Of a DNA stretch of 64,000 nucleotides, positions 4,201-55,893 are shown in pieces (within the stretch, counting starts at the first letter, position 1; each line of letters opens with the position of its first letter). The DNA is from Synechococcus sp. UW140 (GTDB lineage: Bacteria > Cyanobacteriota > Cyanobacteriia > PCC-6307 > Cyanobiaceae). The notes under the pieces were generated by a model. The model did no database searches, was not told the DNA's origin, and saw only the letters and a program-made list of their open reading frames with translations. The DNA lies in contig NZ_UCOB01000012.1 in NCBI RefSeq assembly GCF_900474295.1, forward strand, positions 1 through 64,000, given 5' to 3'. The position numbers and the translations under genes were made by a program.

Positions 4201-4482
4201 GACATTGATCGTGCTGCTGCCGGTCATGTCGCTGTTCGACGAGATGTAATTGATTCCAGGAACGCCGTTGATCTGCTGCTCTAGAGGATTGGTGACGGCT
4301 TGTTCGGTAACCTCGGCATTCGCTCCGCCATACACCGCAGTGACTTGGATTAGCGGATTGGCGATATTCGGCAGGTTGGCGATTGGCAGGGTGGGAATCG
4401 CGATCACGCCGAGCAGCACAATCAAAATGCTGCAAACCGTTGTCAGGACGGGGCGCTTGATGAAGTTGTCAGAGAAGGACAT
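1204..4482 (-). CDS. RND family multidrug efflux pump, inner membrane subunit (HAE-1/AcrB type)
   Basis: A 1092-residue proton-driven RND transporter, the usual length for AcrB-like pumps (about 1030-1060) plus about 40 residues. TM1 is at about 12-30; TM4 holds the proton relay pair Asp413-Asp414 in GLVVDDAIVV; TM10 holds the partner Lys at about 984 in GLAAKNGILIVE. The two large periplasmic loops are present. Between TM6 and TM7 (about residues 513-553) there is an extra pair of hydrophobic stretches that AcrB does not have in this form. It follows its adaptor gene by 6 bases, and its 3' end overlaps the hydrolase gene. It would take substrates from the periplasm or membrane and pass them to a TolC channel; no TolC gene is in this operon, but two TolC-like genes lie at 7.5 and 17.9 kb. 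Confidence 0.95.
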   Translation of the reverse strand: MSFSDNFIKRPVLTTVCSILIVLLGVIAIPTLPIANLPNIANPLIQVTAVYGGANAEVTEQAVTNPLEQQINGVPGINYISSNSDMTGSSTINVYFDQTTDIDIDQVNVQNRVSLAQPQLPRQVAATGVSVKQSNPSILLAYEISSTEGQFDSAYLNGLVYEQLYYPLSRIEGVATVTVFGGANPAYWLFVDPEKLAANQLTAEDVINAVQSQNSVAIGGLVGGPPASGNQAYTYPILVENNGNLISIEDFNNLIVNRSPSGNLLKLQDVGEVRYGTNSFSVQGIDKNGHEALTLAVYQTPSSNALDVSNAVVEQLNQFNAIVPPGVSVDQIYDIGQFIEASVDGVIDALGLAIVLVLVILFLFLQNWRATVVPSLAIPISLVGSFAFLKVFGFSINQLTLLGLVLATGLVVDDAIVVIEAVSSNIEKGMKPREAALACMGELFGALVATALVLMAVFVPVAFYPGGIGIIYKQFALTIAFSIAISAFNALTFSPMLSGLILEKQKPPEPRGRNWIVVGVIVGLAFGQFSAAAFGSWTYLAGVAVGAIAGANLPQIFRTFNQGFDWLQQAYGSLLNKLIALRRFILIGLAAGIVLTCFSFAALPKAFIPDEDQGYGLGIFQLQNGASLVETKKLGAQIAKVLSEEEDVDNASIINGSGFNGSSPDQGIFFFGLKPLEERKGAAHSSKAIVTRLNAKLIELSDGLAAASGPPAVPGFSSQGGFYFQFNDLSNGTYSFNDLSDLAGQLIKEATASGDFSSIYSQFNPSSPAIGLKVNRDVMGALNIDYQEAMNNIAALAGSNYSGLTYESGQVRNIYLQGTPDQRQNIEDILSFYVRNRVGELVQVSQFAEANLSSAPPVISHYNLNRTVLIQGVQAIGKSSGQALSKIQQLFKAQNYTNIGSAFTGLAALQLSAGNASVLVFGLGVLIVYLVLSAQYESYITPVIILATVPLAMLGALAFLAVRSIDLNIYAQVGLVTLIGLAAKNGILIVEVAEQKLAQGKSITEAAVESAESRLRPILMTAIAALAGFLPLVVANGAGANSQQSLGTVIFGGLVVATVLSLGVVPPFYVTVKDLEARWFGHKPSNSMHDAS

Positions 4483-4488
4483 TTGTAC

Positions 4489-5622
4489 TCAGTTCGTTCT
4501 CTTGTTGACCTTCACCGGCATGCCATTGCGAAGTCGGCTGGTGTTGCTAACTGCCACTTGATCCCCGGACTGAAGACCCGACTTCACGGGGTAGTGGTTG
4601 TTTTGTAGACCCCCTAGTTCAACCTTGGTCTGGATCACGATTGGTGTGTCTCCAGGTAGCTGCTCCAGCATTGTTAGTGCTTGCTTGGAGGCATGCGCTG
4701 ACGCTTTGATCGCCGGCAACGCTTGCTTGACTGGAACCAGTCGATACACAAAAGGCTGCTGGGCCTGCATCATCACGGCCTGCACCGGCACCGCCAGTTG
4801 TTCCTGTTCGCCAGTAATGATTTCGCTCTTGACGTACTGGCCTGTTTTCAGCTGTCCGGTGAGGTTGGGAAAGGTGGCTTTCACCATCACCGTGTTAGGT
4901 GCGTTCTTGCTGCCGGGAAGACCGAAGTAGGGGGAGATGAAGGTGACCTCACCCCTACCTGTCACGGGGGGATCGGTTTGGGACGCCACTTTTACGGTCT
5001 GGCCAGCTTTGACAGCATCGGCCTGTGATGCTGGAATTTGCATCAGCGTCCAGAGCGTGGTGTTTTCGACGATTCCTGTGATGGACTGGCCAGTTTTGAC
5101 GTAATCCCCAAGCTTCACGGTGTCGAGATCGCCGACGATTCCATCGATGGGTGATCGCACATATTTGTATCCAAGTGTGGCCGCATCGGCGAGGGCCTTA
5201 TCCCGCGAGGCGATTGCCTGGGTGACATAGCGATCCCGTTGTTTTGCGGAGGCGGCTCCTTGTTGGTAGAGGAACTCGTAGCGCTCTGCATTTAGCCGGT
5301 CAGTGCGGGCTTGAGCCTTGGAGGCGTTGAGGGATGCACTTTGCTGCACGTTATCGAGCACCAAGATCGTTTCGCCCGCTTTGACGCGCTGGCCTTCGCG
5401 GGCCATGATCTTCACTACGCGGCCTTCGCTTTCCGGTTTAAGTACCACGTTGCTAGTGGATTCCAGCAGGCTGATGGCCTGAAGTCTTGGTTGGAAGTTG
5501 GCCGTTTTGATCCGGGCGGTATTGACAGACAGGAACGTTGATTCGTGCTGGTGATGACTGCAGCTCGCAAGCAGGATCACGGATGGCAGCAGGGCCAAGA
5601 CCGGGATTTGGCGATGCATCAT
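4489..5622 (-). CDS. RND efflux periplasmic adaptor lipoprotein (AcrA/MexA-like)
   Basis: Membrane fusion protein of the pump encoded just downstream. It has a lipoprotein signal with lipobox LLASC (Cys21 from the ATG at 5622), so it is anchored in the membrane by lipid. Typical barrel-sandwich halves flank a short hairpin: EGRVVKIMAREGQRVKAGE before it and RSPIDGIVGDL after it. About 377 residues is normal for the family. A GTG one codon upstream and an ATG one codon downstream are alternative starts. First gene of the three-gene leftward operon adaptor, pump, hydrolase. The ligand range is unknown. Confidence 0.93.
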   Translation of the reverse strand: MMHRQIPVLALLPSVILLASCSHHQHESTFLSVNTARIKTANFQPRLQAISLLESTSNVVLKPESEGRVVKIMAREGQRVKAGETILVLDNVQQSASLNASKAQARTDRLNAERYEFLYQQGAASAKQRDRYVTQAIASRDKALADAATLGYKYVRSPIDGIVGDLDTVKLGDYVKTGQSITGIVENTTLWTLMQIPASQADAVKAGQTVKVASQTDPPVTGRGEVTFISPYFGLPGSKNAPNTVMVKATFPNLTGQLKTGQYVKSEIITGEQEQLAVPVQAVMMQAQQPFVYRLVPVKQALPAIKASAHASKQALTMLEQLPGDTPIVIQTKVELGGLQNNHYPVKSGLQSGDQVAVSNTSRLRNGMPVKVNKRTN

Positions 5623-5693
5623 CACTTGTTTTTTCTGACCCTAGCTGGGGTTTGGGCTTCCAGTCTTTTTGGTTAAGGTCACCTTACCCAGCC

Positions 5694-6971: not shown

Positions 6972-7511
6972 CCAGGTTAATTAGATTGTAGATATATAGA
7001 ATCTATGGTGGCATGTTGCTTAGAGCATGCGTTTGCATGGCTGCAATTAATTCAGATAGCCTTTGCCGTCATTGCAAGTTGATATCGATGAAAACCAATA
7101 ATATTTAGAATGAGTTGATTTGCCTTCAAGGGCCGCTAGTCTACCTGGCCGCCATCAATTGGTTTGCTGCCAAATATCAATTTTTTTGGAGTTCCTAATT
7201 GGTTGTCTGGTAGGTCAATGTTGTGGGATGATATAAAGTTTGATGAGGATTAATCAAGCGACGTTTGTAGGCATCTATGGACTGGTGCTTTGCGCGCGTC
7301 TGGCTCATCCACATAATACGCGCTTGAGCGTATGCTTGCTCATTTTGCCAATTCTGGCGTCCAGGCTAATTATATTGTTCAAGACCTACTCTCGAGCGAT
7401 AGTTGCACTCTGCTGTCTGGGCTTGGTTTGTTGGCTGCTTGATTCATGGCTTAAAGCTTATTCGCTGACGCCTTGTCGGATCTTCTTCTTCTATTAGGAT
7501 GTTTATCGTAT
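6972..7511. other. AT-rich spacer between bioA and the export island
   Basis: 540 bases between divergent bioA and the TolC-like gene, much more AT-rich than the DNA to the left. It must hold promoters in both directions. An open frame of 84 codons from ATG 7243 to 7497 would encode a hydrophobic, Cys-containing peptide, but it has no recognised family and overlaps the frame upstream of the TolC gene, so I do not call it a gene. Nothing else recognisable. Confidence 0.6.
7229..7237 (+). promoter_or_regulatory. Possible extended -10 promoter for the export operon
   Basis: TGATATAAA fits an extended -10 (TG-N-TATAAT with one mismatch) about 275 bases before the TolC start. No convincing -35 stands at 16-18 bases upstream, so this is a weak candidate only. 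Confidence 0.25.
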
Positions 7512-9014
7512 ATGGGAATTTGCTTGTCTCCGGTTAGCGGCACTTCTGTAGTTAGACTTCTGGTCTGCATCTCCACTGCTTTGGCCAGCTTTGGTGGAGT
7601 TGTTCATGCCTTTTCTAGTGACCAATCGCTGCTGCCGGATCAGCTGCAGGAGGCCCGTGACCTTCTTGAGTTGTCTCAGCGTGCCGATTTGGATGGAGTG
7701 ATTGAGGCCGCCCTTCTTCGCAATCCGAGGCTCCTCTCTGCATCCCAAAGGATCGAAGCACGACGTTCTCAGCTTTCCTCTTCTGAGCGTCGATGGCTCC
7801 CTAAGGCTCTATTTAATACTTCTGGCGATCAACCTTTGCTTGGCCAATATTTTGAGACTGATATTGCAAGGGATCCAAAAAATGATCTCGCATCCTCTCA
7901 CACATTTGATAACTATGGTATTGGCTCACTGAATTTGCAAGTCTCCTGGAATTTCTGGGAGCCTAGTCGTCAGCCTGCTATTAACGTTTCTTCTTTTCAG
8001 CTTGATGCAGAGAAGTTGACCTTTGATGTGATCGCACGCAGTATCGTTCTTGATGCTCAATTGGCCTACTATGAGCTGCAGGAGAACCAGCATCTAATAG
8101 ATATTTATGAGGGTATTTACCATCGCAATCGCCAGCTTTTGGAGATTGTCGAGTCCCAGTTCAAAGGTGGTCTAGTTCATATCGGTGATGTGAGTCAGCA
8201 GAAGACTCTTTTGCTAAGTCAATTGATCACCCTGGATGGGTTGTATAGAGTGCAGCTTCAGGTTGCTTCAGACTTGGCTCGCATTATGGGGCTACCGTCA
8301 GGGTCTGCTGTGCTTCCTATTGGATTAGGGACTGACCGCCTGACGACTTGGGACCTGGATTTGAATCAATCCATACAAGATGGTCTCGCTTTGCGTGAAG
8401 AAATTCGTATTGCTTTGGCTGATGCAAATGCTCAAGATTGGGAGGCTCAGCGCTTGGTAAACCTTTATTTGCCAGTCATGGGCCTGAGCGCTAATGGCTA
8501 CAAGAGTTATTCTCGGGGAGTTTTTGATGGAGACATCAATGGCAATAATAATTCTTACCGAGCAACTAATTCTTATGCCGAATTGACTTTAGGACTCGGT
8601 TTTAATTGGAATTTTTATGATGGTGGCGTTCGCGCTGCCCAGGCTGCTGCAAGCCGTAATCTTGCTGCTGCTCAGCGACACGATGCAGATGGAGAGCGGA
8701 ATAGGGTGGGTAATCAGATTCGTAGTAGTTATGCCGCTTACCTGACAGCAAAACATGCTTTGCCTGATTCGGAAGAAGCCATCCGAACCGCAAAATTAGC
8801 AGTGGATGTGGCCTCGCAACGTTATGGCGCTGGCATTGGTGATATCACAACTGTTGTTCAAGCGACACAGCTACTCGGCGAAGCATCTAGGCAACGTAAG
8901 GCTGTAAGGCTGACTTATCGAAATGCAGTTGCAGAGCTTTATCGCTACTCTGGACTATGGCCGAAACCCTACCGAAGCCAAATTCGTACGTTGCTTAAAC
9001 TAGACAATCCTTGA
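7512..9014 (+). CDS. TolC-like outer membrane efflux/secretion protein
   Basis: A 500-residue outer membrane factor that would form the trimeric channel of the export machine encoded downstream. The ATG at 7512 is chosen over the upstream TTG at 7473 because it begins a good Sec signal peptide with a hydrophobic core and a VHA-type cleavage site near residue 34. TolC-family features follow: the first repeat begins DLDGVIEAALLRNPRLLSASQRIEA, and the second half has LGLGFNWNFYDGGVRAAQAAASR and the ITTVVQATQLLGEA region near the C-terminus. It is followed after 3 bases by the HlyD-like gene and shares its AT-rich composition. Probably the first gene of a four-gene operon. Confidence 0.9.
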   Translation: MGICLSPVSGTSVVRLLVCISTALASFGGVVHAFSSDQSLLPDQLQEARDLLELSQRADLDGVIEAALLRNPRLLSASQRIEARRSQLSSSERRWLPKALFNTSGDQPLLGQYFETDIARDPKNDLASSHTFDNYGIGSLNLQVSWNFWEPSRQPAINVSSFQLDAEKLTFDVIARSIVLDAQLAYYELQENQHLIDIYEGIYHRNRQLLEIVESQFKGGLVHIGDVSQQKTLLLSQLITLDGLYRVQLQVASDLARIMGLPSGSAVLPIGLGTDRLTTWDLDLNQSIQDGLALREEIRIALADANAQDWEAQRLVNLYLPVMGLSANGYKSYSRGVFDGDINGNNNSYRATNSYAELTLGLGFNWNFYDGGVRAAQAAASRNLAAAQRHDADGERNRVGNQIRSSYAAYLTAKHALPDSEEAIRTAKLAVDVASQRYGAGIGDITTVVQATQLLGEASRQRKAVRLTYRNAVAELYRYSGLWPKPYRSQIRTLLKLDNP

Positions 9015-9017
9015 CTA

Positions 9018-10382
9018 ATGAATCATTCTAAACATCAAATAAATTCGTCGGTTCGCTTGATTTCTTCCCCGCTTAGGGCCGCTATCGCTATTACGATTTT
9101 CATTAGTGTAGGTGGCCTTCTTTGGGCATGCTTTGCAAAGATACCTATTTATGTTGATGGCTTTGCAATATTATTACGTAGTGGAAATAATCGCCGCTTG
9201 CATAGTCATGCAGAGGGTGAGTTGAATCATAATTTTAATGCTGATGGTGTTACCCCTAGTCAGCTCGATAAGGATCTGTATGCGATTAGCCATCTTGGTC
9301 AAAAGATGGATTCCAGTAAGAGTGCTCGCCTTGCCGAACAAGTCTTAGTCATGACTTCACAGCGGGAGCGATCGCAAGCTGGAACGGATACGGACAAGTT
9401 GCTACCCCGTGGAACATTGCTGAGCTGGATCGACTCTCCTTCTGAACGAGCAAATTTAAGTGACAGTCTTAATTACTATAGGCTGACAGAAAAGGCAAGA
9501 ATCTCGACAGCTAAAGAGTTAAGTACAATTGATCTTAGGCTTCAGCAAAAAATTACTTTGCTTGGTCGAGAACTACAAACTCAGACGGATTTTCTTGAGA
9601 CAATTAAGACACTTGGTTCTCGTGGTTATGCGAGCAAGGTCAAGGTTCTAGATCAGCAAACTAAAGTCGACGCTATTCTTAGTGAGATCCTCTCCCATCA
9701 AGAGAGACTTGCTGCAAACAAAGCACAGCTTCTGCAAGCTGAGATTGCGGCCGAGACGGCCAGTACTGACCTTGTTAAGGAGCTTAGAACGTATGCAGGT
9801 CATAATTTAATATTTGCGGAGCATGATCTTTATATATCAGGTATTTTGGCTCCCAACCTTACTCAGGTGAGGTCAAAGGACCCTGTTCTTCGTGTTTCTC
9901 GTGAGTCTGCTCTACGTCTTCCTGAGGTTATTCCTGGTTTTCTTACTCAGCAGGCGGCTCAACAGGTGCGTCCTGGCATGAAGGTGCTTGCTACTCCAAT
10001 AGGTATGAGCCGTGCTCAATATGGTGGCATGCTTGCAGAAGTGGTCCATGTGAAAAGGCTACCTTCATCGATCACTCAAATTCGTGAGAATGTGGGCAGT
10101 GAAGGAGTTGCTAATGAATTGACAACATTGATTCCTCAGCCCACTCATATAGTTATTGAGTTAGAGGCTGATTCTTCTACTCAAGATTCTACGAAGGAAG
10201 GAATTAAGTGGTCTTCCTCTGGCCAAATTCCTTACCCTATCCGTCAAGGTGATTTGTTGAGTATTCAGATTACAACACAAAGAGTTCGCCCTATTAGCTT
10301 ATTGATACCTTGGCTTAGGAAGTTCTCTGGCACTAGTGCTCCAATGCTCACTCCAGAGAGTAGTGGTGCTGTAAGTAGATGA
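9018..10382 (+). CDS. HlyD/NHLM-type membrane fusion protein
   Basis: A 454-residue periplasmic adaptor with one N-terminal membrane anchor (about residues 20-42) and no lipobox. A helical region rich in Gln, Leu and Glu (about 150-250) is likely the coiled-coil hairpin that meets TolC. The membrane-proximal part after about 370 is Ser- and Thr-rich. Layout and the neighbouring pair of ABC subunits resemble the secretion protein of NHLM bacteriocin systems (TIGR03794-like), by gene order and general form rather than by a diagnostic motif. Its stop overlaps the start of the next gene (ATGA), so the two are translationally coupled. It would bridge the ABC transporter and the TolC channel. Confidence 0.82.
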   Translation: MNHSKHQINSSVRLISSPLRAAIAITIFISVGGLLWACFAKIPIYVDGFAILLRSGNNRRLHSHAEGELNHNFNADGVTPSQLDKDLYAISHLGQKMDSSKSARLAEQVLVMTSQRERSQAGTDTDKLLPRGTLLSWIDSPSERANLSDSLNYYRLTEKARISTAKELSTIDLRLQQKITLLGRELQTQTDFLETIKTLGSRGYASKVKVLDQQTKVDAILSEILSHQERLAANKAQLLQAEIAAETASTDLVKELRTYAGHNLIFAEHDLYISGILAPNLTQVRSKDPVLRVSRESALRLPEVIPGFLTQQAAQQVRPGMKVLATPIGMSRAQYGGMLAEVVHVKRLPSSITQIRENVGSEGVANELTTLIPQPTHIVIELEADSSTQDSTKEGIKWSSSGQIPYPIRQGDLLSIQITTQRVRPISLLIPWLRKFSGTSAPMLTPESSGAVSR

Positions 10383-12484
10383 GCCAGATGTCATTTCAGC
10401 CAGAAACAAAACTACCTCAGCTTCTACAAAGTGTGCAGGCTGAGTCTGGTGCTGTAGCTTTGGGTATTGTTTTAGCGTTATATGGGAAGTCATGTTGTTT
10501 GAGTGAATTATGTATTGCTAGTGGCGTCACACGAGATGGCACTAATCCTAAGAAATTGTTGCATGCGGCCGAGCACTTTGGCCTGACTGGCGATTGGAAG
10601 ATATCCAACAACAGGTTGGACATCAAGAATATGATTGAAGATCAATGTATGCCATTAATCTGTGTCGATGAATCTAATTGCTATTTTGTAGTCCTTAATA
10701 TTAAGGCCACTACGGTTGAAATCTATGACACACGTCTTGGTCGCCTTCAGAAAAGTCTCGATCAGATAGTCGCCAACCAGATATTGGTACTGAGTCCTTC
10801 AAGGGACTTTCATACATCTGATGCACTGCCTTATTGGCGGAGTTGTTTGCAATTAGCTTTGCCTCTGAAGTGGGAGTTTATTGCTTTAGTGCTATTGGCC
10901 ACAGTATCTGTTATACCAATTTTGATGATTGCAGCATGTTCGTCGCAGTTCATAGATCAGTTTCTCGAGCAGAGACGCCTATCCTTCGGAGTACCTATTG
11001 TTTGGCTAGCACTCATCGCTCTTTCTCTGAAAGTAGCGATGAGCTTAACCAGTGATGTTCTACTTAGGCGCATGAGCTATGTCCTGGAGAGACGGATGGC
11101 AGATGATGTTTTCGAAACATTATTTACACGCTCATCTTCTTTTTTGGAAAGGCGAGATTCTGGAGATATGGCATCTCGTTTAATGTATCCATATCTTGTA
11201 CCTGGGAGTGCAATCTTTGCATTTCTTTCTCCCGCTCTTGGTCTGTGGACAAGCACTCTAATTGTCATATTTTCAGCCTTCATTTCGATCCCACTATTTC
11301 TGTTTGTTTTGACAGGCTTTATTGCAATCTTGATCGCTTCTTACCGGGTAACAGTCAGCACAAGTGATAATTTAACAATTCTCCAAAAAAGCAATAGCTC
11401 TCGTTTTTCAATCGCTTTTCAGATGATTAATAACCTGGAATCCCTCAAGTCAGACGGAATAGAGTTTAATATTCTGAACAAGTGGCACTCTTTTTTCGCT
11501 GAGGGTGTTCAACAGAATCTATCTATTGGAAAGCAAAAAGTAATTCGCAATGTGAGCATTGATGGGTCTATATTTGTTACCCAAGCCCTTCTTTTGGGTG
11601 TTGGGGGGATACTGATTATCCAAGGCAGTGTATCGCTAGGAAGTTTGTTGGCTTTTTTATTCATTCAGGATCAGATTGCAGAGTCCCTTTTTTCTATTCC
11701 TGCTATTAGTAATGGATGGCAGTCTCTGCAGGGAAAATTGTTGTTGCATGATGACCTCAAGCAAGCTGAGGTTGATGTTTGGCATAAGCCCTTTGAGCGT
11801 ACTCGCTCTGACGAATCTGATGAATATTCGGATTCATTTGAGATTGAGCTTGTTGATGTTGCTTACCGCTTTAGTCACCTAGATCAACCTGTTCTTTCTG
11901 ACATTAACTGCACGATAAAAAATGGAATGCATGTTTTACTTCGTGGTGAGAGTGGATCAGGTAAAACACTTTTCATGCAGTTGCTTTCCGGACTACGCCA
12001 TCCTTCTGAAGGCACGCAAATGTTGAATGGCACGTCAATTAGCGAAATCGATAGTAATTATTGGCATCGAAATGTTGTTTACTTGGGAGAAGATATACCT
12101 TTGTTTGATGGCACTATACTAGAAAATATTACTTGTTGGCGCAGCAATTGTAGCACTGTAGATGTAATCAAGGTGTCTTCTGTTGTTGGCCTAACACATT
12201 GGATCCGTCGTTTTGAACGTGGTTTTGAGCATCATCTAGTCAATCCTAATCAGATATTATGTAATAGTCAAAAAATTCAGTTGGGTATTGCTCGGATCTT
12301 GTGTGGTAAACCTCGGATTGCGCTGATAGATGTTAATACAGCCGAGCTTCGAAGTGAGGATGAGAAGCGAATTTACAACTTTTGTCGCGATGAGGGCATC
12401 TCGCTCGTCAGTCTTTCTGAACGAAGTGCTCATCATGCTCTATATGATCAAATATTATTTCTTCAGAGAGGCAAGCTGTTGTGA
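10379..12484 (+). CDS. ABC exporter subunit with inactive C39-like domain and degenerate ATPase domain
   Basis: 701 residues: an N-terminal C39 peptidase-like domain (about 10-145), a six-helix transmembrane domain (about 155-450) and an ATPase domain (about 490-701), the layout of peptidase-containing exporters such as the NHLM first subunit. In the C39 part the catalytic Cys is Ser23 (AESGAV where active members have ECGAA) and the catalytic His position is Tyr102 (CYFVVL for HFVVL); the third-position Asp117 remains. In the ATPase, Walker A (GESGSGKT, 523-530) and the Walker B Asp651 are kept, but the signature reads CNSQK (about 628), the catalytic Glu is Val652, the Q-loop position is Glu571 and the switch His position is Glu681. 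It probably recognises cargo without cutting it and needs the next gene's product for ATP hydrolysis. Coupled to both neighbours by ATGA/GTGA overlaps. Confidence 0.88.
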   Translation: MSQMSFQPETKLPQLLQSVQAESGAVALGIVLALYGKSCCLSELCIASGVTRDGTNPKKLLHAAEHFGLTGDWKISNNRLDIKNMIEDQCMPLICVDESNCYFVVLNIKATTVEIYDTRLGRLQKSLDQIVANQILVLSPSRDFHTSDALPYWRSCLQLALPLKWEFIALVLLATVSVIPILMIAACSSQFIDQFLEQRRLSFGVPIVWLALIALSLKVAMSLTSDVLLRRMSYVLERRMADDVFETLFTRSSSFLERRDSGDMASRLMYPYLVPGSAIFAFLSPALGLWTSTLIVIFSAFISIPLFLFVLTGFIAILIASYRVTVSTSDNLTILQKSNSSRFSIAFQMINNLESLKSDGIEFNILNKWHSFFAEGVQQNLSIGKQKVIRNVSIDGSIFVTQALLLGVGGILIIQGSVSLGSLLAFLFIQDQIAESLFSIPAISNGWQSLQGKLLLHDDLKQAEVDVWHKPFERTRSDESDEYSDSFEIELVDVAYRFSHLDQPVLSDINCTIKNGMHVLLRGESGSGKTLFMQLLSGLRHPSEGTQMLNGTSISEIDSNYWHRNVVYLGEDIPLFDGTILENITCWRSNCSTVDVIKVSSVVGLTHWIRRFERGFEHHLVNPNQILCNSQKIQLGIARILCGKPRIALIDVNTAELRSEDEKRIYNFCRDEGISLVSLSERSAHHALYDQILFLQRGKLL

Positions 12485-14619
12485 ATAGCCGAGACGCTGA
12501 ATATCTCTCTAGTCTGGATAAAGATATTTACTCTCTTAGGCCAGGTCGCAGTGAGATTGGCCCTGCTGATCCATCATTATTGTTAATTAGTACGGCTCTG
12601 AGGCTTCTAGATATTAAAAGTAAACGTCTTGATCCTGTTGGTGCCAAGGGTGATATCTTTTCCAATCTCGAGTTCAATCATATCTATCATCGGCGTGTTT
12701 CACTTCCTTGTGATCTTGAGAATGGAGAATATCCTCTTCTATTGCTTTTGAATGCGTCCAACGCAACTCCCTATTTGCTTAAACGCAATGGCCGACTGAA
12801 TCAGCTCTTGGCGATTCGTAATGGTCAAGTTTGCATCTTGCCGAAGAGTCAATGGCCTGACTTTGCTGATAATGCTTACGAGCTGCATGCTTGCTTTCGT
12901 GACAGCATTGCTGGGATCGGTGAGCTGTTGCGGCTTGCCTATAAGCCAGAGCTCAGGGCGATCGGCTTGCTGCTGTTGATATCTGCTCTTGTCCTTGCAG
13001 TTAGTCTTTGTATACCTATTCTCACGAATACGCTGGTCACAACTGTTCTCCCAGAGACCAATTTGAGATTTCTTGCTGAGTGCCTGTTTGTTGTTGCACT
13101 CATTGTGGTTGCTTCTATCACCAGTCAGTACTTACAACAGATAATGATTCTGCGATTGGAAACGATTGGCAACCAACGTTTGCAGCTTGGCATGTGGCAG
13201 CATTTTCTTAAATTGCCGATTTCTTTCGTCGCCAATAGAAATAGTGGTGATATATATGCTGGTGTTAGTGCAATATCAAAGATACGAAGCTACGTGGGTG
13301 CTGGTGCACTTACCTCTGGGCTTTCGGCTTTGTTTTCATTTGCTTTTCTCGCTTTGATGATTAAATATAGCCCAAGCCTTGCCATTTGGATGATAATGGT
13401 TGTTGCCCTTGTTTTATTAGTTGTTTTCTTGATTGCACGCAGGGCCATCTCCCTGAATGAACAGGCGTTTAATATAAAAAGTCGTCTTAATGGCATCAGT
13501 GATGAACTGAGTTCAAGTGTTCTCCCTATTCGTGCTCTGGGTGCAGAGATCCCTTTTCTGCGTCGTTGGATGCATGATTACACAAACATGGCCAAGATCT
13601 CGATGCAACTTGATTTGCATGAGCAGTGCATTGATGTAATTCTCAGCTCCCTTAGTCCACTCGGGTCGGTACTGCTATTTGCTGTTGCTGTTTGGCAAGT
13701 CCTTGATGAGCCAGAAACTATCGGTGATCCTCGGCTTGTTGGCAGCTTTATTGCTTTCTACTCGGCTTTCATAGCATTTAGTTCATCAATTGCTGATGCC
13801 GCTGCCAATCTTACAGACGTTTTCGCCAATGTATCTGTTCTCTGGCGTAAGGCAAAAGTCATTCTAGAGGCTCGTATTGAGCCTGGCTGGAAGGCTACTG
13901 TTGCTAATCATTTTTTTCTTGGCCACATCACTTTAAATGAGGTTGTTATTCGGCCAGATGGCCTAAGAGAGCCGCTGCTTCAAGACATTTCTATTGATAT
14001 TTCTCCTGGCAGTATTGTCGCAATCCTTGGAAAGAAGGCTTCGGGAAAGTCTCTGCTGCTCAAGACTGTTCTGGGTTTGGTTGTTCCTGAGAGTGGGGAT
14101 GCTTTGGTAGATGGTATCCCAGTGGCCAAAGTGTCTTCTCGTGGCCTACGTGGACAAGTTGGATATGTTCAACAGCGAGTAGTTCTTGAAGAGGTTTCAA
14201 TTCGTACTTTATTGTCTGGTCAATATCAGTACCCAGATTCTCTTATTTGGCACACTCTTGAGTTGCTTGGCTTGGAGGAGCGTGTTCGTTCCATTCCGAA
14301 GCAATTAGATGCAGAGCTGGTCGATGGTGGTGTTCCATTCTCTCGAGGGGAGAGGAAGCTTCTAGCGCTTGCCCGCGCCCTACTTAGGAAGCCTGCAGCT
14401 CTTTTGCTTGACGAAGTATTGGTTGGATTGCCACACAGGGATCACGCTCGGTTGATTGATATTATTCGCTCTCAGGATTCCACCATTTTAATGATTCCGA
14501 GTCATTGGTCAGAGCTTGAAATAGTTGACCATGTTGTTGTGCTTGATGAAGGGCGGATCTGTTTCTCTGGTCGAATTGGTGACTCTAGTTTTGACCAGTC
14601 CTTGATTGATCTTGCCTGA
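12481..14619 (+). CDS. ABC exporter subunit, permease plus ATPase (NHLM second-subunit type)
   Basis: 712 residues with a GTG start that overlaps the previous stop (GTGA). About 150 N-terminal residues form a cytoplasmic domain with RRVSLP and LLLLNASNATPYLL, resembling the pre-membrane domain of NHLM ATP-binding subunits (TIGR03797-like, judged by eye). A transmembrane domain (about 155-440) and ATPase follow. The ATPase keeps Walker A GKKASGKS (517-524), Q-loop Gln565, signature FSRGE (about 620), Walker B with Asp644-Glu645 and the switch His675. It is therefore the catalytically more complete partner of the preceding subunit. Last recognisable gene of the AT-rich operon; no cargo gene follows. 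Confidence 0.88.
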   Translation: MNSRDAEYLSSLDKDIYSLRPGRSEIGPADPSLLLISTALRLLDIKSKRLDPVGAKGDIFSNLEFNHIYHRRVSLPCDLENGEYPLLLLLNASNATPYLLKRNGRLNQLLAIRNGQVCILPKSQWPDFADNAYELHACFRDSIAGIGELLRLAYKPELRAIGLLLLISALVLAVSLCIPILTNTLVTTVLPETNLRFLAECLFVVALIVVASITSQYLQQIMILRLETIGNQRLQLGMWQHFLKLPISFVANRNSGDIYAGVSAISKIRSYVGAGALTSGLSALFSFAFLALMIKYSPSLAIWMIMVVALVLLVVFLIARRAISLNEQAFNIKSRLNGISDELSSSVLPIRALGAEIPFLRRWMHDYTNMAKISMQLDLHEQCIDVILSSLSPLGSVLLFAVAVWQVLDEPETIGDPRLVGSFIAFYSAFIAFSSSIADAAANLTDVFANVSVLWRKAKVILEARIEPGWKATVANHFFLGHITLNEVVIRPDGLREPLLQDISIDISPGSIVAILGKKASGKSLLLKTVLGLVVPESGDALVDGIPVAKVSSRGLRGQVGYVQQRVVLEEVSIRTLLSGQYQYPDSLIWHTLELLGLEERVRSIPKQLDAELVDGGVPFSRGERKLLALARALLRKPAALLLDEVLVGLPHRDHARLIDIIRSQDSTILMIPSHWSELEIVDHVVVLDEGRICFSGRIGDSSFDQSLIDLA

Positions 14620-15041
14620 GGACTCTGGTGTTCTTGCAATTCTAATTTGGAGTACACTCTTTCCCCGTAAATGTGGATTGTTCATGTGCTTTCTTTCGCT
14701 GCATTAATTAGATATTTGTTGTGTGTCCAGTTGGAGGTGTTCTCGTTGGTATGTTTGTTCTTTCGGCTTGATTTGTATTGTGAAGTCTGGTCTTACAGCG
14801 CTATTGAATTGATTGCTTCGTATTCTTTCTCGATTTTGCCCGTCGTGTCGAATCAGGATTTGAATAGTTTGCAGCTCTGCGCAATGCCAACGAAGTATTC
14901 ACGCTTCAGCGGTCGCGAACTGTTGGAGAACGTGTCGGCAGGTGCTGGACTGCGTTGACCGCAGCTCTAGCTACCAACTTGCGAAGCTGTCACAGCACTT
15001 CAGATTTGTGAGTGTCCATTTGGGATGGCCCAGGGCTGTAA
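14620..15041. other. Non-coding looking junction between AT-rich and GC-rich islands
   Basis: About 420 bases after the export operon with no gene I can support. The first 300 bases are AT-rich like the operon; from about 14,990 the composition turns GC-rich. A frame of 95 codons at 14671-14958 shows no family features, and I saw no Gly-Gly leader, Nif11-like or nitrile hydratase-like leader peptide in it. I saw no direct repeat or integrase. Confidence 0.55.
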
Positions 15042-15287
15042 GGCCTTAGAGGGCGAGAAGCTGAAGGGTTGGAGACCCTGGCCGACCTGCGCCGCTACTG
15101 GGTCGACATCTTCACGATCGGCCAGTCACTGTCTCCTGGCCCCAACCACCTGGCGGCTGTTCTTTTCGTGCCACCCAGTCAGTTCGACACCTACAGCCGC
15201 ATCGGCGAGGAGGAGCTCCGCTTTTTGCAGGTGGTGAGCACTCCCCTCACCCGCAGCAGCTACCCCGCTGGCGAGTGCAGCGACTAA
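15042..15287 (+). pseudogene. Possible gene remnant, function unknown
   Basis: The frame is open from 15042 (after a TAA) to the stop at 15287, and could start at TTG 15069 giving 72 residues. The translation is globular looking ([37 protein letters not shown]) with protein-like codon use, yet no good start or RBS, which suggests the 3' part of a once longer gene. The FLQVV...PLT stretch is faintly like suppressor-of-fused type domains; I would not rely on that. It sits at the boundary where base composition changes. Confidence 0.3.
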
Positions 15288-15307
15288 TGGCGATCCATCC
15301 GCGCTGA

Positions 15308-16417
15308 TCAGGGCGGAGTAGGCAACCGCTGGCCCAGCCAGGAGGCCTCCTCCCTGGCCGCGGGATAGAGCCTGGCGAGTTCCTCGCGGGCACTGGGATC
15401 CGAGCGCTCCAAGAGCTGCCGATAGCGACTTAGGGCGGAATCTGGAAACAGCAACAGTCCCGATAGCAGCGCCAGCGCACAGCCGAGCAGGTAATCAATC
15501 CAGCGGTTGGGGATGTACCAGGACACCAGCGGTCCATAACCGGCAAAGGCGACACCGCTTGAGATCAGGGCGGTGCGCAGATAAGGACCGAGATTGAGGG
15601 CGGCCACAAAGGCGGCGGTGCCACCCATGGCCAGGGCGACAGCGACACTATTGAGACCGATGGTGTTGAACACGAGCAGGGGCATCAGCACCCCCAGGCT
15701 CATGCCCACCATCCGATCCCGCACCCGGGCGAGGGTGGCTCCGATGCTGTCGTTGAGCAACAGCACCACGCCGAAATAGAGGTATTTGGGTGTCTGGGTT
15801 CCCAGCCCCACCCCGATCGTCAAAGCGAAGGCCGTCAACACCAGCTTGCGCCAGAAACTCCAGCTGCTCAGCGCAAGCCGGTAGCGCTGCGGCATGGGCA
15901 GATCGTCACCCTCCGGCCCACTCGGTGGTGCTGGCGCGCCATAGCCAGATGGCGTGAGGCCCCATTGCAGGGCGGTGCCGATGGCGAGGCCGATGGCCAC
16001 GGCCTCCAGCTGATGCCCCCAATCCGTCCAGGTGGCGGCGGGATCGAGCAGGGGCAGCACCCCGGCTGCCGCCACCACATTGGTCAGCAGGGCCAACTTC
16101 GCTGGCAAGGCCACCGCCAGCAGCTGCATCAACACGCCCACCACCCCAAACCACCACACCTCGGGACCGGCGGGGAACATCAGGCGCACGCTGAGGCCGA
16201 TGACCATCGACAGACCGGCGATCACCATCAACACCGGATAGATCAACACTGGCCAGCGGCAGAAATCGGGTCGCACCACGAGCACTCCCACCACAACGCC
16301 ATAGGCGGCGGGAATGTCACCCAGTCCCAGGGTGAGGCAGACCTGATGGGTGAGGCTGGCAGCCAGACCGATCGCCAGGGCTGCTCGCAATCCCAGCCAC
16401 TGCTGTTCAGTCGCCAT
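15308..16417 (-). CDS. FUSC-type integral membrane protein (aromatic acid exporter-like)
   Basis: 369 residues with two clusters of hydrophobic helices: about 8-150 and again about 195-330, separated by a hydrophilic loop rich in Pro and Gly. This duplicated layout and stretches such as GDIPAAYGVVVGVLVVRPD and YLYFGVVLLLNDSIGATLARVRDR match the FUSC/AaeB/YccS-like group, whose members export aromatic acids or similar solutes. It is shorter than AaeB (about 655). Its start overlaps the end of the small membrane protein gene by 11 bases. With the upstream adaptor gene and the divergent TolC gene it would form a tripartite export system. The substrate is unknown. Strongly GC-rich. Confidence 0.75.
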   Translation of the reverse strand: MATEQQWLGLRAALAIGLAASLTHQVCLTLGLGDIPAAYGVVVGVLVVRPDFCRWPVLIYPVLMVIAGLSMVIGLSVRLMFPAGPEVWWFGVVGVLMQLLAVALPAKLALLTNVVAAAGVLPLLDPAATWTDWGHQLEAVAIGLAIGTALQWGLTPSGYGAPAPPSGPEGDDLPMPQRYRLALSSWSFWRKLVLTAFALTIGVGLGTQTPKYLYFGVVLLLNDSIGATLARVRDRMVGMSLGVLMPLLVFNTIGLNSVAVALAMGGTAAFVAALNLGPYLRTALISSGVAFAGYGPLVSWYIPNRWIDYLLGCALALLSGLLLFPDSALSRYRQLLERSDPSAREELARLYPAAREEASWLGQRLPTPP

Positions 16418-16610
16418 GGGGCTTAGACGGCTCCTGCTTGAGGGCTTGGACCAAGCCCACCAGCAGCACGATCAGCAGAAGCGCAAACCAGAACCAGAGC
16501 CTTGGTGCCGTGCTCGACACGGTGATCGCCAGCAGCACTAGGGCAATCCAGGGGGCTGGCTGGCGAAGGGCAGCCAACCAGCTGGAAGAAGCGAGGCGAT
16601 GGCGCGGCAT
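16407..16610 (-). CDS. Small membrane protein (67 aa), AaeX-like position
   Basis: 67 residues with one long or two short hydrophobic segments (about 20-54) and basic N- and polar C-terminal ends. No family recognised from sequence. It stands between the adaptor gene (24 bases upstream) and the FUSC gene (overlapping), the same place and the same length as AaeX in the enterobacterial aaeXAB export operon, although I see no clear AaeX sequence signature. It is inferred to be an accessory of the same exporter. Confidence 0.65.
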   Translation of the reverse strand: MPRHRLASSSWLAALRQPAPWIALVLLAITVSSTAPRLWFWFALLLIVLLVGLVQALKQEPSKPHGD

Positions 16611-16633
16611 GAGGTCAGAGCGGTACAGGAGGG

Positions 16634-17869
16634 TCAGCGGGTGATTCCGGCGATCCAGCGCAGGAACGGCAGGGCATAGCTGAGCAGCGAGCGCCGTTCC
16701 ACCACTGCCTTGGCTTCGGCGGGCTGGCCGGACTCAAAGCGAAGGCTTGGTCCGCGGCCAGCGCTCCAACGCAGACCGGAGGGAGTCTCGGCGGATTCCA
16801 GTGTCACGCGCACCAGCATGACCGGCGCCGTCGCCTTGGCGGGGAGGATCGCGAGGGGGTCGCCGCCCTCTCCAAAAGCCTCCTGACGGGCACGGGCCAC
16901 GAGCGACGCGGCAAGATCCACCTCACCTACTGCGCTCGCAAGGGAGGCTGCATCCAGCGAGGTGGGGGAAATGGCAGCGATCGTGCCCTCCACACCGCCG
17001 TAACGCTGGGCCGTGCCGCCGTATTGGTTTCGGCTCTGAAGAATCGGTTCGATCTCGATCGCAGATCCCACCCTCAAGCGCGTGGAATCCGCCTCCGTGA
17101 ACAGCGCCATCGCCTGACGCGACGACGTTTTAGGCCGCTCCAGCGCCAGGGTGCCCAGCCGTGCTCCCGGGAGAACGGGCTGACCGGCCTCCACAGCCCA
17201 ACTCACCAGGCGGCCCGGCTCCGGAGCCCGCACCTCCAGGGAACGGGTCTGGGCCTCCAGTTCCGCCCGAGTGGCCCGCAGCTGGGCCTGCTCGGCCTGC
17301 AATAGGCCCCGGTTGGCCTGCAGCTGGGCGATCTTCGCCTCCAGGGAGCGGATGGCGGCCTTGTTGCCGAGATACAGATTCTGGGCCGCGACCCAAAGGG
17401 GGCTGTAGGTGGGAATTACCTTCTCCTGGCGCAGTTGCTCCAGGGCCGTGAGCTGCTGGCCAACAGGCTGGTTGCTGACCTCCAGGGTGCTGATCTGCTG
17501 GCGTAGAGCGCCAACCTCGGCACTGTTGGCCTGCAGTTGCTCCGCCAGTCCCCGCTGCTTGGCGGCATTCGCCTCCAATTGACGGGCGAGCGCCTGGGGC
17601 TGGCCAGCGGGAGCGCTGCCACCGGCGGCCGCCTGATCGATGCGGTCGAGGCTGGCCACCACCTGATCACGGCTGACCCGCGCTCCCACGGGAATGCTGA
17701 GATCCAGAACCTGGCCGGCGGAGCGGCTGTAAAGCCCGCGTCGATCGCCCGGCGCCAGCAGAACAGCCGCGCCAAACACCTCAACCTCGATCAAGGGGAG
17801 CACGGACCAGACGGCCGTGGCTCCTGTGACCAGAGCGATTGGCCAACACCTCTTCAGCAGGGCGCTCAT
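16634..17869 (-). CDS. HlyD-like membrane fusion protein of the FUSC export operon
   Basis: About 411 residues from the ATG at 17869; an upstream start at 17923 would add 18 residues but reach into the divergent promoter. One N-terminal membrane anchor (WPIALVTGATAVWSVLPLI), a biotinyl-lipoyl-like half (SAGQVLDLSIPVGARVSRDQ), a long Gln/Leu/Ala-rich coiled coil (about 85-220), then the second half (LEVRAPEPGRLVSWAVEAGQPV). The form is that of HlyD/EmrA and NHLM-type adaptors. First gene of a leftward three-gene operon and divergent, across 75 bases, from the TolC-like gene. Very GC-rich. Confidence 0.82.
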   Translation of the reverse strand: MSALLKRCWPIALVTGATAVWSVLPLIEVEVFGAAVLLAPGDRRGLYSRSAGQVLDLSIPVGARVSRDQVVASLDRIDQAAAGGSAPAGQPQALARQLEANAAKQRGLAEQLQANSAEVGALRQQISTLEVSNQPVGQQLTALEQLRQEKVIPTYSPLWVAAQNLYLGNKAAIRSLEAKIAQLQANRGLLQAEQAQLRATRAELEAQTRSLEVRAPEPGRLVSWAVEAGQPVLPGARLGTLALERPKTSSRQAMALFTEADSTRLRVGSAIEIEPILQSRNQYGGTAQRYGGVEGTIAAISPTSLDAASLASAVGEVDLAASLVARARQEAFGEGGDPLAILPAKATAPVMLVRVTLESAETPSGLRWSAGRGPSLRFESGQPAEAKAVVERRSLLSYALPFLRWIAGITR

Positions 17870-17944
17870 CACACTCAGGAACCGCGCGTAGGGTAACGCC
17901 GTTTTTGGGTGGCTCCGCCCCATCTCCCTGACAGCTGCAACGGC

Positions 17945-19363
17945 ATGCTCCGACGACGGTTTCTGGTTTCCCTGCTACTAGCTGCAGTCGCCGCGCTGCC
18001 GGCCCGGGCGGAACCACTCGCCCTCAGCCTGGAGCAAGCGCTCGAGCGCGGCATGGAAGCCTCCCTGGCTCTGAAGCAGACAGATGCCCACAAAGCCGGC
18101 ACCGCTGCAGACGTGGGGATCAGCCGCAGCCTCTTTCTGCCCAAGCTCGATGTGGTGGGGCTGGGCAGCTGGGCCCAGGTGGGCAGCTCGATCGGGTTCA
18201 TCTCCAACCTGCCCACCATTGGTGATCTCAACGTCAATCTCCGCGGCGACGGCTATGCCGTGATCCAGAACAGCTTCGGCAACATCGGCCTGGCCCTTAG
18301 CTATCCGCTGATTAATTTCGAGCGTGGACCTCTGTTGGCGGCCGCCCAGGCCCTGGATCAGGCCGCGGACGTGCGGGTGCAGGAACAGCGGCGACAAAGC
18401 CGTTTCGCAATCACAAACGCCTATCTCAATCTGCAGCTCACAGAAGCGCTGATCCCCGTGTGGCAGCGCTCGATCGCCCTGTCGACAACCCTGCTCAAGG
18501 ATGCAGAGGCCCTGCTTGACGGCGGTCTTGGCGCGCGCATCGATGTGTTCAGGGCCCAGGCGCTGCTCGCCTCGGATCAGAGCGGCCTGAGCGCTGCCCG
18601 CTCGGAGCAGGCGATCGCCGCCAGTGCCCTGGCCAGGCTGCTGGATCTTCCCGCCGAACAGACGCTGGAAGCCAGCGCTCCCCTGCTGGCCGCAGCCCCC
18701 TGGCCGCTCGACCTGCAGGCCTCGGTGGAGGCTGCCACCAGCAACCGCCCCGCCCTGGATGTGATCCGCCAGGAGAGGGCGGCTGCGGAAGCGAAGGTGC
18801 GCGCCGCTCGCGGCACCATGCTGCCGCGCGTTGGGCTGCTCGTTGGTGGAGGCATCAATGGCGACAACCTCAGCCTGCCGGTACTTAACGGCAGCAACAG
18901 CATCGGCAACGTGCCCGTGGCCGGTGAGGTGTCGCTGCCTGGGGTGAGCAGCAGCGGCAGTGCTAGCGGCAGCTTTTACGACTACGGCGTGCTGCTCACC
19001 CTGCGCCAACCGCTCTTCGACGGTGGCCTGTCGGCCCAGAGTGCAGCCCTGGCCGAGAGCCAGGTGCAGGAGCAGCGTCTGCTGTTGAAGCAACGTGAGC
19101 AGGTCATCATTCTGGCCGTGGAAAGCTTCTGGCACACCCATCGCAGTGCCGCTGAAACGATGCAGGCCTCGCGCAAAGCCGTGGTCGCCAGCGAGGAAGC
19201 AGTCCGCGATGCCCAGCTGCGCTACCGGGCCGGCATCGCTCCGGTCACGGAGCTGCTGCTGGCGCAGCGGGATCTGCAGGCCGCCCGCAGCGCTGAAGCA
19301 ACCGCCATTCAGCAGTGGAATCTCAGCCGGGCTGGCCTGGAGCTGGAGACGGGGCAACGCTGA
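17945..19363 (+). CDS. TolC-like outer membrane efflux protein (second copy)
   Basis: 472 residues. The ATG at 17945 is preferred over an in-frame start at 17909, which would overlap the divergent gene, because it begins a clean signal peptide (LRRRFLVSLLLAAVAALPARA). TolC-family repeats are visible: LSLEQALERGMEASLALKQTDAHKA, GLALSYPLINFERGPLLAAAQAL, then TLRQPLFDGGLSAQSAALAES and the terminal APVTELLLAQRDLQAARSA. It would provide the outer membrane channel for the divergent adaptor/FUSC system. Little sequence likeness to the 7.5 kb TolC beyond family features, and opposite base composition (one 60-base line at 18001 is 73% GC). Confidence 0.88.
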   Translation: MLRRRFLVSLLLAAVAALPARAEPLALSLEQALERGMEASLALKQTDAHKAGTAADVGISRSLFLPKLDVVGLGSWAQVGSSIGFISNLPTIGDLNVNLRGDGYAVIQNSFGNIGLALSYPLINFERGPLLAAAQALDQAADVRVQEQRRQSRFAITNAYLNLQLTEALIPVWQRSIALSTTLLKDAEALLDGGLGARIDVFRAQALLASDQSGLSAARSEQAIAASALARLLDLPAEQTLEASAPLLAAAPWPLDLQASVEAATSNRPALDVIRQERAAAEAKVRAARGTMLPRVGLLVGGGINGDNLSLPVLNGSNSIGNVPVAGEVSLPGVSSSGSASGSFYDYGVLLTLRQPLFDGGLSAQSAALAESQVQEQRLLLKQREQVIILAVESFWHTHRSAAETMQASRKAVVASEEAVRDAQLRYRAGIAPVTELLLAQRDLQAARSAEATAIQQWNLSRAGLELETGQR

Positions 19364-19535
19364 ACAGCCTGGTCGTCACGACAAAGTGGCTTTGAAGCTT
19401 TAGGCCGATCGTGCAGTCAGAGCAGCCACAACATCAACACCCCCGACTACCGCCGGCACAGATTGGTCGGATCCTCCAGAGCTTGGGTTTGTCGGCCAAG
19501 CTTCTGGGCAGTGACCGGGCTTGGGTTGCTGCCTG

Positions 19536-20744
19536 ATGGGTCAACGAAGCAGCGCCGAGCATCGCGACCTCAGCGCGCTAGCGCCTGAGCTCAGTCAATC
19601 CCTATTGGCCTGGTGGGAGCTTCACGGCCGGAAGGACCCTGCGCTGAAGCCTTGGATGTTCACAAAGGACGGCAGGTGGCCCGAACCCCATGAACACCTC
19701 AATGTCCTGGAGTGCTGGATCGCCGAGGTGATGCTGCAGCAGACCCAGCTACAGGTGGTGCTTCCTTACTGGACGGCCTGGATGGAGGCCTTCCCGAGGC
19801 TCGAGGTCTTGGCTGGAGCGGATGAACAGGCGGTGCTGTTGCGCTGGCAGGGGCTGGGCTATTACTCCAGGGCTCGTCGTTTGCTTGCAGCAGCTCGGCA
19901 GTTGCTCACAGAGTTGAGGCCTGTTGGTGAGGCAGACCCTCAGAGTTGGCCTCAGGAGCTGGATCGCTGGCTTCTCCTGCCTGGGATCGGTCGAAGCACT
20001 GCCGGTGGCATCCTCTCCTCCGCGTTTAATAGTCCCCTGGCGATTCTGGATGGCAATGTGCGCCGGGTGCTGGCCAGGGTGATGGCCTATCCACATCCAC
20101 CGATGTGGCATCAAGGGCTGTTCTGGAGTTGGAGCCAGTCCCTGATCGCTGCCGCGCCGGAGCGGGCCAGGGATCTCAATCAGGCTTTCATGGATTTGGG
20201 TGCGACTCTTTGCACGCCTCGCAATCCGGCCTGTGCTTCATGTCCGTGGCAATCGGCTTGCGCTGCGTACGCTTCGGGCAGCCCTGATCGTTACCCCGTG
20301 AAAGAAGCTCCCCGCGATGTGCCCTTTCAGGTGATCGGTGTGGGTGTGGTGCTCAATCAAGCTGGCCAGGTGCTGATCGATCAGCGTCTTAACGAGGGCT
20401 TGCTGGGCGGGATGTGGGAATTTCCCGGCGGCAAACAGGAGCCAGGTGAGCTGATTGAGGCCACGATTGCTCGCGAGTTGAGGGAGGAGCTGGCGATCGA
20501 GGTCACGGTGGATCAGGCGCTCATTTGCGTTGATCATGCCTACAGCCATAAAAAGCTGCGTTTTGAGGTGTACCTCTGCACTTGGTGCTCTGGTGAGCCG
20601 CAGCCCTTGGCTAGTCAACAGGTGCGATGGGTGCAGCCCCAAGAGCTCGGGGCCTATCCCTTCCCTGCTGCCAATGCCCGCATCATCGCGGCGCTGATGA
20701 CCCATCTGGGTCTGCCTGCGTTGGATCAGTCCGTCTCGGGTTGA
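19536..20744 (+). CDS. mutY: A/G-specific adenine DNA glycosylase with C-terminal Nudix-like domain
   Basis: Removes adenine mispaired with 8-oxoguanine. The helix-hairpin-helix glycosylase part shows EVMLQQTQLQVV (catalytic Glu), LPGIGRSTAGGIL, the catalytic Asp in ILDGNVRRVLAR and the 4Fe-4S ligands C-x6-C-x2-C-x5-C in CTPRNPACASCPWQSAC. The C-terminal part has a recognisable Nudix box (GGKQEPGELIEATIARELRE), used in MutY for 8-oxoG recognition rather than hydrolysis. The ATG at 19536 is used; TTG 19521 is in frame upstream. 402 residues is normal. Followed by the sugar kinase gene. Confidence 0.94.
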   Translation: MGQRSSAEHRDLSALAPELSQSLLAWWELHGRKDPALKPWMFTKDGRWPEPHEHLNVLECWIAEVMLQQTQLQVVLPYWTAWMEAFPRLEVLAGADEQAVLLRWQGLGYYSRARRLLAAARQLLTELRPVGEADPQSWPQELDRWLLLPGIGRSTAGGILSSAFNSPLAILDGNVRRVLARVMAYPHPPMWHQGLFWSWSQSLIAAAPERARDLNQAFMDLGATLCTPRNPACASCPWQSACAAYASGSPDRYPVKEAPRDVPFQVIGVGVVLNQAGQVLIDQRLNEGLLGGMWEFPGGKQEPGELIEATIARELREELAIEVTVDQALICVDHAYSHKKLRFEVYLCTWCSGEPQPLASQQVRWVQPQELGAYPFPAANARIIAALMTHLGLPALDQSVSG

Positions 20745-41554: not shown

Positions 41555-41587
41555 ATCGAATGTCCTTGCTAGCTTTCGAGTAACACT

Positions 41588-43125
<1,538 letters not shown>

Positions 43126-53953: not shown

Positions 53954-54128
53954 TGCTAGGGCTTTGACTATTACAAATATAGCTAGTCGTTATGGTAATG
54001 GATCAAGAGATCTGGAGGTCATGTATCGACTCCAAAGGCTGATTGGCTTTAGTTTGAGCCCCGACTGGCCATTGATTTTGTATTTTGCCTGAGGGTAAAA
54101 TGAAAAGTAAGTTTTGCATTTTGATGGG

Positions 54129-55181: not shown

Positions 55182-55310
55182 CGCCACATAAAACAATTCA
55201 AACTAAATCTGGGTAACTTTTGTTGTTGAGGCTTAGTTTTTCCGTTTTGCTTTACGTTTGGCGCAGTGACTATGGACTTTGAAGATTGATTTGTTTGATC
55301 GCTCAATGAG

Positions 55311-55704: not shown

Positions 55705-55724
55705 ACCCCATAATGGCTGTTGAT

Positions 55725-55798
<74 letters not shown>

Positions 55799-55893
55799 TG
55801 ATGATTGTCTTGTGATCCCGTAGCCGCCACTACATCTGGCGGGGTGGCGTTCCCTCACTCTGTCGCTAGCGTTGTTGCAGTGAATCCGGTTCC

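Follow-up and report, generated by a model that had tools for sequence, protein, structure and literature searches.

A peptidase-dead, asymmetric relative of NHLP peptide exporters, with its own TolC, predicted from an AT-rich operon of Synechococcus sp. UW140

The operon and its family

The window analysed here is a stretch of 64,000 nucleotides of Synechococcus sp. UW140 (contig NZ_UCOB01000012.1, positions 1 to 64,000; contig C27 in our numbering, from a genome of 2.70 Mb that is 99.98% complete). It contains an AT-rich operon of four closely packed open reading frames (ORFs) on one strand, in the order tolC-hlyD-abc1-abc2, which runs from 7473 or 7512 to 14619 and includes two unlike ATP-binding cassette (ABC) proteins. 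Both of these have a transmembrane domain (TMD) and a nucleotide-binding domain (NBD). The four genes are listed below, where G029 and G008 are two other genomes of the genus.

7473..9014, + strand: TolC-like outer membrane factor (Pfam OEP, 8.5e-40; TIGR01844, 66.9 bits; 60-61% identity to the G029/G008 orthologues)
9018..10382, + strand: HlyD-like periplasmic adaptor (TIGR03794, 82.3 bits over residues 4-435, cut-off 156; 62-63% identity to G029/G008)
10379..12484, + strand: ABC1, with an inactive C39-like domain, a TMD and a degenerate NBD (Pfam C39, ABC_membrane and ABC_tran; TIGR03796, 311 bits, cut-off 853)
12481..14619, + strand: ABC2, with an N-domain, a TMD and a partly degenerate NBD (Pfam ABC_membrane and ABC_tran; TIGR03797, 320 bits, cut-off 709)

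The tolC gene may start at the TTG at 7473 or at the first ATG at 7512, which are about equally likely. It is separated from hlyD by a 3-base gap (TGA-CTA-ATG), while hlyD and abc1 share an ATGA overlap and abc1 and abc2 a GTGA overlap. The GC content of the island is 0.443, compared to 0.613 (sd 0.005, 7-kb windows) for the remaining window, and at third codon positions it is 0.35-0.40 in the island genes and 0.69-0.78 in the flanking ones. These junctions had been described in the original prediction, together with a 60-base line at 11881 having 33% GC, and both descriptions are confirmed (we measured 33.3%). The four-gene AT-rich operon that it placed at 7229-14619 is also present, but the start was set about 240-280 bp too early. 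An RNA search found no riboswitch or other RNA control element in the island, and promoter and terminator patterns occur in it at no more than chance level.

In searches with hidden Markov models (HMMs), the top NCBIfam models are TIGR03794 for the adaptor, TIGR03796 for ABC1 and TIGR03797 for ABC2, which form the NHLP exporter trio. The NHLM/NHLP-type assignment proposed earlier is thus right as regards the ranking of the models, but none of the three curated cut-offs is reached. The NHLP gene set is present (peptidase-type ABC, second ABC and HlyD), and ABC1 groups with the canonical members in a tree. By sequence, the closest solved structure to ABC1 is PCAT1; by fold, both ABC proteins are closest to HlyB and PCAT1, which are the top Foldseek matches of the ABC2 model. 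The adaptor has neither a Pfam family match nor a PDB sequence match.

The supposition that paired ABC subunits of this type normally lack a dedicated TolC in their operon proved to be mistaken. The order tolC-hlyD-abc1-abc2 was found in all the family cassettes examined with enough flank, including lanthipeptide exporters associated with LanM and the more distant cassettes of the same genus, one of which lies on contig C3 of this genome. Because every related cassette with enough flank has a tolC, its presence in the operon is not special; an operon-borne TolC is the rule among these cassettes.

Degenerate motifs, their history and the selection on them

The picture of a whole export machine is borne out by the operon, but it overlooked the unusual feature of this one, which is the degeneration of its peptidase and ATPase motifs. 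According to the alignment, the catalytic residues of the ABC1 C39 domain are gone in the window and in both orthologues, Cys being replaced by Ser and His by Cys. In the NBD of the same protein, the signature LSGGQ has become LCNSQ (LCSSQ in the orthologues), Walker B reads DV instead of DE, with loss of the catalytic Glu, and Glu has taken the place of the Gln in the Q-loop and of the His in the H-loop in all three genomes. Walker A and the Asp of Walker B are retained throughout. ABC2, whose motifs were compared across 25 homologues, is less affected. Its signature in the window and the orthologues is FSRGE or LNSAE, and Walker A is GKKASGKS in the window or GQRASGKS, with the Lys kept; besides this Lys, the Q-loop Gln and the catalytic Glu (DE) are retained in all three genomes. 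A His sits one column off the usual H-loop position, so the H-loop His is probably kept.

An ordinary NHLP or lanthipeptide exporter, merely diverged and still cleaving double-glycine leaders, would be in line with the best family matches and with the 14 Nif11-leader loci of this genome. It is contradicted by the loss of the catalytic C39 Cys and His in all eight members of the clade described below, and it agrees poorly with the three missed cut-offs and with the separate canonical cassette with intact C39 in the same genome. Moreover, neither a precursor nor a modifying enzyme adjoins the operon, the genome is without LanM, and its Nif11 leaders lie elsewhere. We find this explanation scarcely credible. 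What the operon does share with type 1 secretion systems of the HlyB kind is an ABC exporter with a membrane fusion protein, a TolC and a non-catalytic C39-like domain.

Within the genus, orthologues of all four genes, at 57-63% identity, are otherwise present only in G008 and G029. Relatives at 36-44% identity are present in two members of the family, G193 and G177, in which ABC1 extends about 25 residues further at the C-terminus, and a second collection scan gave more cassettes of the same kind in freshwater picocyanobacterial metagenome-assembled genomes. A first scan with the ABC1 protein alone as query found nothing, and no relatives of the cassette were found in viral contigs. The C39 Cys is missing in 8 of 55 ABC1 homologues, all in one clade, and the NBD motifs in 3 of 55 only (window, G029 and G008). 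In the ABC1 tree, which was built by a quick method and in which the program flagged long branches, the eight-member dead-C39 clade has a Shimodaira-Hasegawa-like approximate likelihood ratio (SH-aLRT) support of 100, as does the nested three-member degenerate clade, which stands on a long stem of 2.1 changes per site. In the members of the G193/G177 type, the C39 is dead and the NBDs conform to consensus. Since this sister clade has lost the peptidase and kept intact ATPase motifs, the loss is stepwise, and the simplest history suggested by the sequences is probably that the peptidase was lost first and the ATPase motifs afterwards.

The four genes, as judged from the ratio of nonsynonymous to synonymous substitution (dN/dS), are under purifying selection. 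For the G008-G029 pair, the ratio is 0.086 for TolC, 0.145 for HlyD, 0.128 for ABC1 and 0.131 for ABC2, with 0.114 and 0.124 for the two NBDs alone; the neighbouring ruvB and tetratricopeptide repeat (TPR) genes give 0.061 and 0.035. A pseudogene was rejected on these values. Decay has to be weighed in a wider sense as well: the operon might be a peptide exporter acquired by transfer that no longer has a substrate and is drifting, its frames still unbroken. The degenerate motifs, the genome without LanM and the lack of a nearby substrate gene would all suit it. Nevertheless, all four genes have unbroken frames in the three genomes, at 58-63% identity and with saturated synonymous sites, dN/dS in the G008-G029 pair stays at 0.09-0.15 with the NBDs included, and the motif losses are common to all three genomes, and we judge such drift quite improbable.

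The distribution of the constraint is peculiar. Between the window and G029, ABC1 is 70% identical in the TMD and 53% in the NBD (NBD minus TMD, -0.178), and ABC2 is 69% and 49% identical, respectively (-0.206). For canonical ABC1 pairs of similar overall identity, the difference has a mean of +0.117 and a minimum of -0.084 (198 pairs), and for canonical ABC2 pairs it has a mean of +0.006, a minimum of -0.051 and reaches up to +7 points (35 pairs). The argument is based on these ranges and not on p-values, because canonical pairs have common ancestry and so cannot count as independent. By this comparison of sequences, the constraint is moved from the NBD to the TMD and the usual pattern of conservation is reversed.

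Proposed mechanism, cargo and comparison with known systems

We think that there are about even chances that the operon encodes a heterodimeric type 1 exporter with a dead peptidase, an asymmetric derivative of the NHLP/lanthipeptide (PCAT-type) exporters with at most one working ATP site, located on ABC2, that exports a substrate with uncleaved leader. From what is known of the families, ABC1 and ABC2 would pair in the inner membrane as a heterodimer, which the HlyD-like adaptor would couple to its own TolC in a conduit similar to that of type 1 secretion. The C39-like domain of ABC1 would not cleave double-glycine leaders and could at most serve for substrate docking, as the C39-like domain (CLD) of HlyB does. 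Composite site 1, formed by Walker A and B of ABC1 and the signature of ABC2, might bind ATP at best, which leaves composite site 2 (Walker A and B, Q- and H-loops of ABC2 with the ABC1 signature LCNSQ) as the sole candidate for hydrolysis. ATP would be bound at both sites and split slowly at site 2, leading to the export of a substrate encoded elsewhere.

The state of site 1 has a precedent. In the degenerate site of human ABCB11, the catalytic Glu is absent and the partner signature has Gly replaced by Arg and Gln by Glu, as in FSRGE here (PMC7544095). ABCB1 given the same set of changes still transports (PMC7544095), which shows that changes of this kind need not preclude transport. More generally, ABCB11 and TM287/288, which have one degenerate site, are alike in that an NBD without catalytic Glu faces an altered signature (PMC7544095), whereas in the present pair the second site, too, faces an altered signature and both D-loops are gone. 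With a heterodimer that combines a degenerate and a consensus site, the pair shares the missing catalytic Glu (DV in ABC1, DE in ABC2) but not the intact second signature.

Several observations weigh against an exporter driven by site 2. The signature opposite the presumed working site is altered (LCNSQ/LCSSQ), the D-loop consensus is lost in both subunits, and Walker A of ABC2 has an Ala at the fourth Gly; going by these motifs, composite site 2 may be incapable of ATP hydrolysis. The NBDs of both ABC proteins diverge faster than the TMDs. In addition, the structure models are modest (pLDDT of 61, for ABC1, and 72), the AlphaFold model of ABC1 being weak (TMq at most 0.41) and used for domain order only. 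Concerning the cargo, the operon has no gene for a substrate next to it in the close orthologues, and the cassette flanks of different orthologue groups have neither a small ORF nor DNA in common.

The same observations lead to the question of whether there is any ATP hydrolysis by the NBDs. Together with adaptor and TolC, the heterodimer could instead form a conduit that is constitutive or gated by ATP binding, a sensor (cf. CFTR and SUR) or a silent partner of an intact exporter encoded elsewhere. We regard this as possible, on the unlikely side. Both composite sites are off consensus in all three members, the NBD-to-TMD differences of ABC1 and ABC2 are both outside the canonical ranges, and a canonical cassette of the family is also found in all three genomes. 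However, this co-occurrence in three of three genomes means little, because canonical cassettes are common in the genus, and an ATPase-free protein need not have kept the Lys, Gln, Glu and probably His of ABC2 in three genomes. That a two-ABC machine without hydrolysis at either site has been selected as a trans-envelope conduit, a gate, a sensor or a non-catalytic partner of the canonical lanthipeptide exporter is, in our opinion, unlikely.

Candidate cargoes were also sought in the genomes. The ORFs at 7240, 14671 and 15069 of the window have no Pfam match. A product of polyketide or lipid type was considered, given that a reducing type I polyketide synthase (PKS) with thioester reductase and a sulfotransferase stand beside the cassette in G177, L086 and L089. 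Nothing in this genome matches the G177-type PKS, though, and six genomes of the same genus match most of it strongly, four of them without the cassette; in G008 and G029 the PKS is about 70-95 kb away from the cassette. Such a cargo is very improbable. Proteins with a C-terminal signal of the RTX type were considered as well; RTX repeats show no tie to the cassette and, being present in this genome and in 26 of 31 genomes of the genus, are uninformative on cargo. Nif11-leader peptides were followed as a lead and likewise show no link with the cassette.

The hemolysin exporter HlyB resembles the present system by its inactive C39-like domain on an ABC protein working with HlyD and TolC (PMC8277102). 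It forms homodimers, and its ATPase motifs are ordinary; here, the dimer would be a heterodimer, the ATPase motifs are degenerate and the peptidase was lost independently, inside the NHLP group. Gene content and order, ABC domain make-up, adaptor family and operon-borne tolC are as in the three-gene NHLP/NHLM cassette (PMC2887384) and in the cassettes of marine Synechococcus that are associated with LanM; the present operon differs from these by its lost C39 active site, its degenerate NBD motifs, the lack of a nearby precursor or LanM and its scores far below the curated cut-offs. The RtxB/RtxE-RtxD-TolC system of MARTX loci is likewise of type 1 and has four components, two of them ABC proteins (PMC3034196); its tolC lies outside the rtx locus, and by best HMM match it belongs to a different subfamily. 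Dead C39 domains (HlyB), type 1 systems with two ABC proteins (RtxB/RtxE) and one-sided degenerate sites are each already described. In the open-licence literature searched, we found no report of their combination with an altered second site and with constraint shifted from the NBD to the TMD.

The clade forms a natural series inside a single type of cassette and a single bacterial family, from active peptidase and ATPase, through dead peptidase with intact ATPase motifs, to a dead peptidase combined with degenerate ATPase motifs. It therefore offers a way to test what a peptide exporter can do without, and whether an ABC machine spanning two membranes can run on one non-consensus ATP site or on none. 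Besides, annotation by best hit would call this operon a bacteriocin exporter, though leader cleavage should not occur.

Genomic setting and neighbouring features

The cassette is part of a longer segment that is absent from G010, the closest relative as judged from the flanks (92-96% DNA identity), which has 177 bp in place of the 12.6 kb of the window.

6977..19610, no strand: segment absent from G010, with the AT-rich cassette and GC-rich FUSC/HlyD2/TolC2 genes (blastn breakpoints and junction sequence)
15308..19363, mixed strands: FUSC permease (-), HlyD-like adaptor (-) and TolC-like protein (+), in the same insertion, 65-68% GC, probably a separate pump

The segment is flanked by bioA and by a gene at 19521 (MutY by eye), and in four more genomes (G005, G003, G019 and G020) the interval from bioA to the downstream genes is occupied by other content. 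The cassette of G008 and G029 is located between ruvB and the TPR gene, which are contiguous in the window and in G010, and that of L087 between ruvB and smpB. With three or more locations, the cassette is an accessory block, and comparison of these loci makes it likely that it was gained here by transfer, loss in G010 being the less likely alternative. A transferred, self-contained module had been predicted; the 12.6 kb missing in G010 and the orthologous cassettes at ruvB and not at bioA agree with transfer, but the inserted segment is a composite of two unlike base compositions and also holds the GC-rich FUSC-HlyD-TolC pump. A mobile element was discarded, as the insert has no integrase and the breakpoints no common direct repeat (by eye).

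Other export genes are found nearby and elsewhere in the genome. An RND permease and its adaptor lie on the other side of bioA (1204-5625 of the window), which makes three export systems within 18 kb, and contig C24 carries another two ABC proteins, of 901 and 738 aa, on either side of an HlyD-like protein (L039, 2706-8756). LanM occurs in 13 of the 31 genomes of the genus. The canonical four-gene cassette of this genome (L038, 7023-14534), with intact C39, is an orphan exporter, the equivalent distant cassette adjoining a LanM in three checked genomes.

In the G177-type genomes, L136 (10925-18529) with L086 (14566-22082) shows genes for a type I PKS with thioester reductase, a metal-dependent hydrolase and a sulfotransferase beside a dead-C39 cassette. 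Nif11-leader matches number at least 135 in G008 and at least 117 in G029, both of which carry the degenerate cassette, compared to 4-53 in other genomes of the genus. In G018 (contig C9) and G021 (contig C61) there are single uninterrupted reading frames of 13,954 and 14,499 residues, respectively, that contain RTX repeats. The L087 record, with its cyanobacterial ruvB-cassette-smpB region, is titled Bifidobacterium breve, a bin name that looks wrong.

Farther along the window, a thiamine pyrophosphate (TPP) riboswitch (70.4 bits) was found at 41578-41686, just upstream of the gene at 41671. A second AT-rich stretch of about 45% GC, at 53300-55196, encodes two Cys-containing proteins without known function, one of 217 aa that has an apparent signal peptide and one of 355 aa, and adjoins the RNase P RNA (55309-55702, - strand) and a tRNA-Arg (55724-55799).

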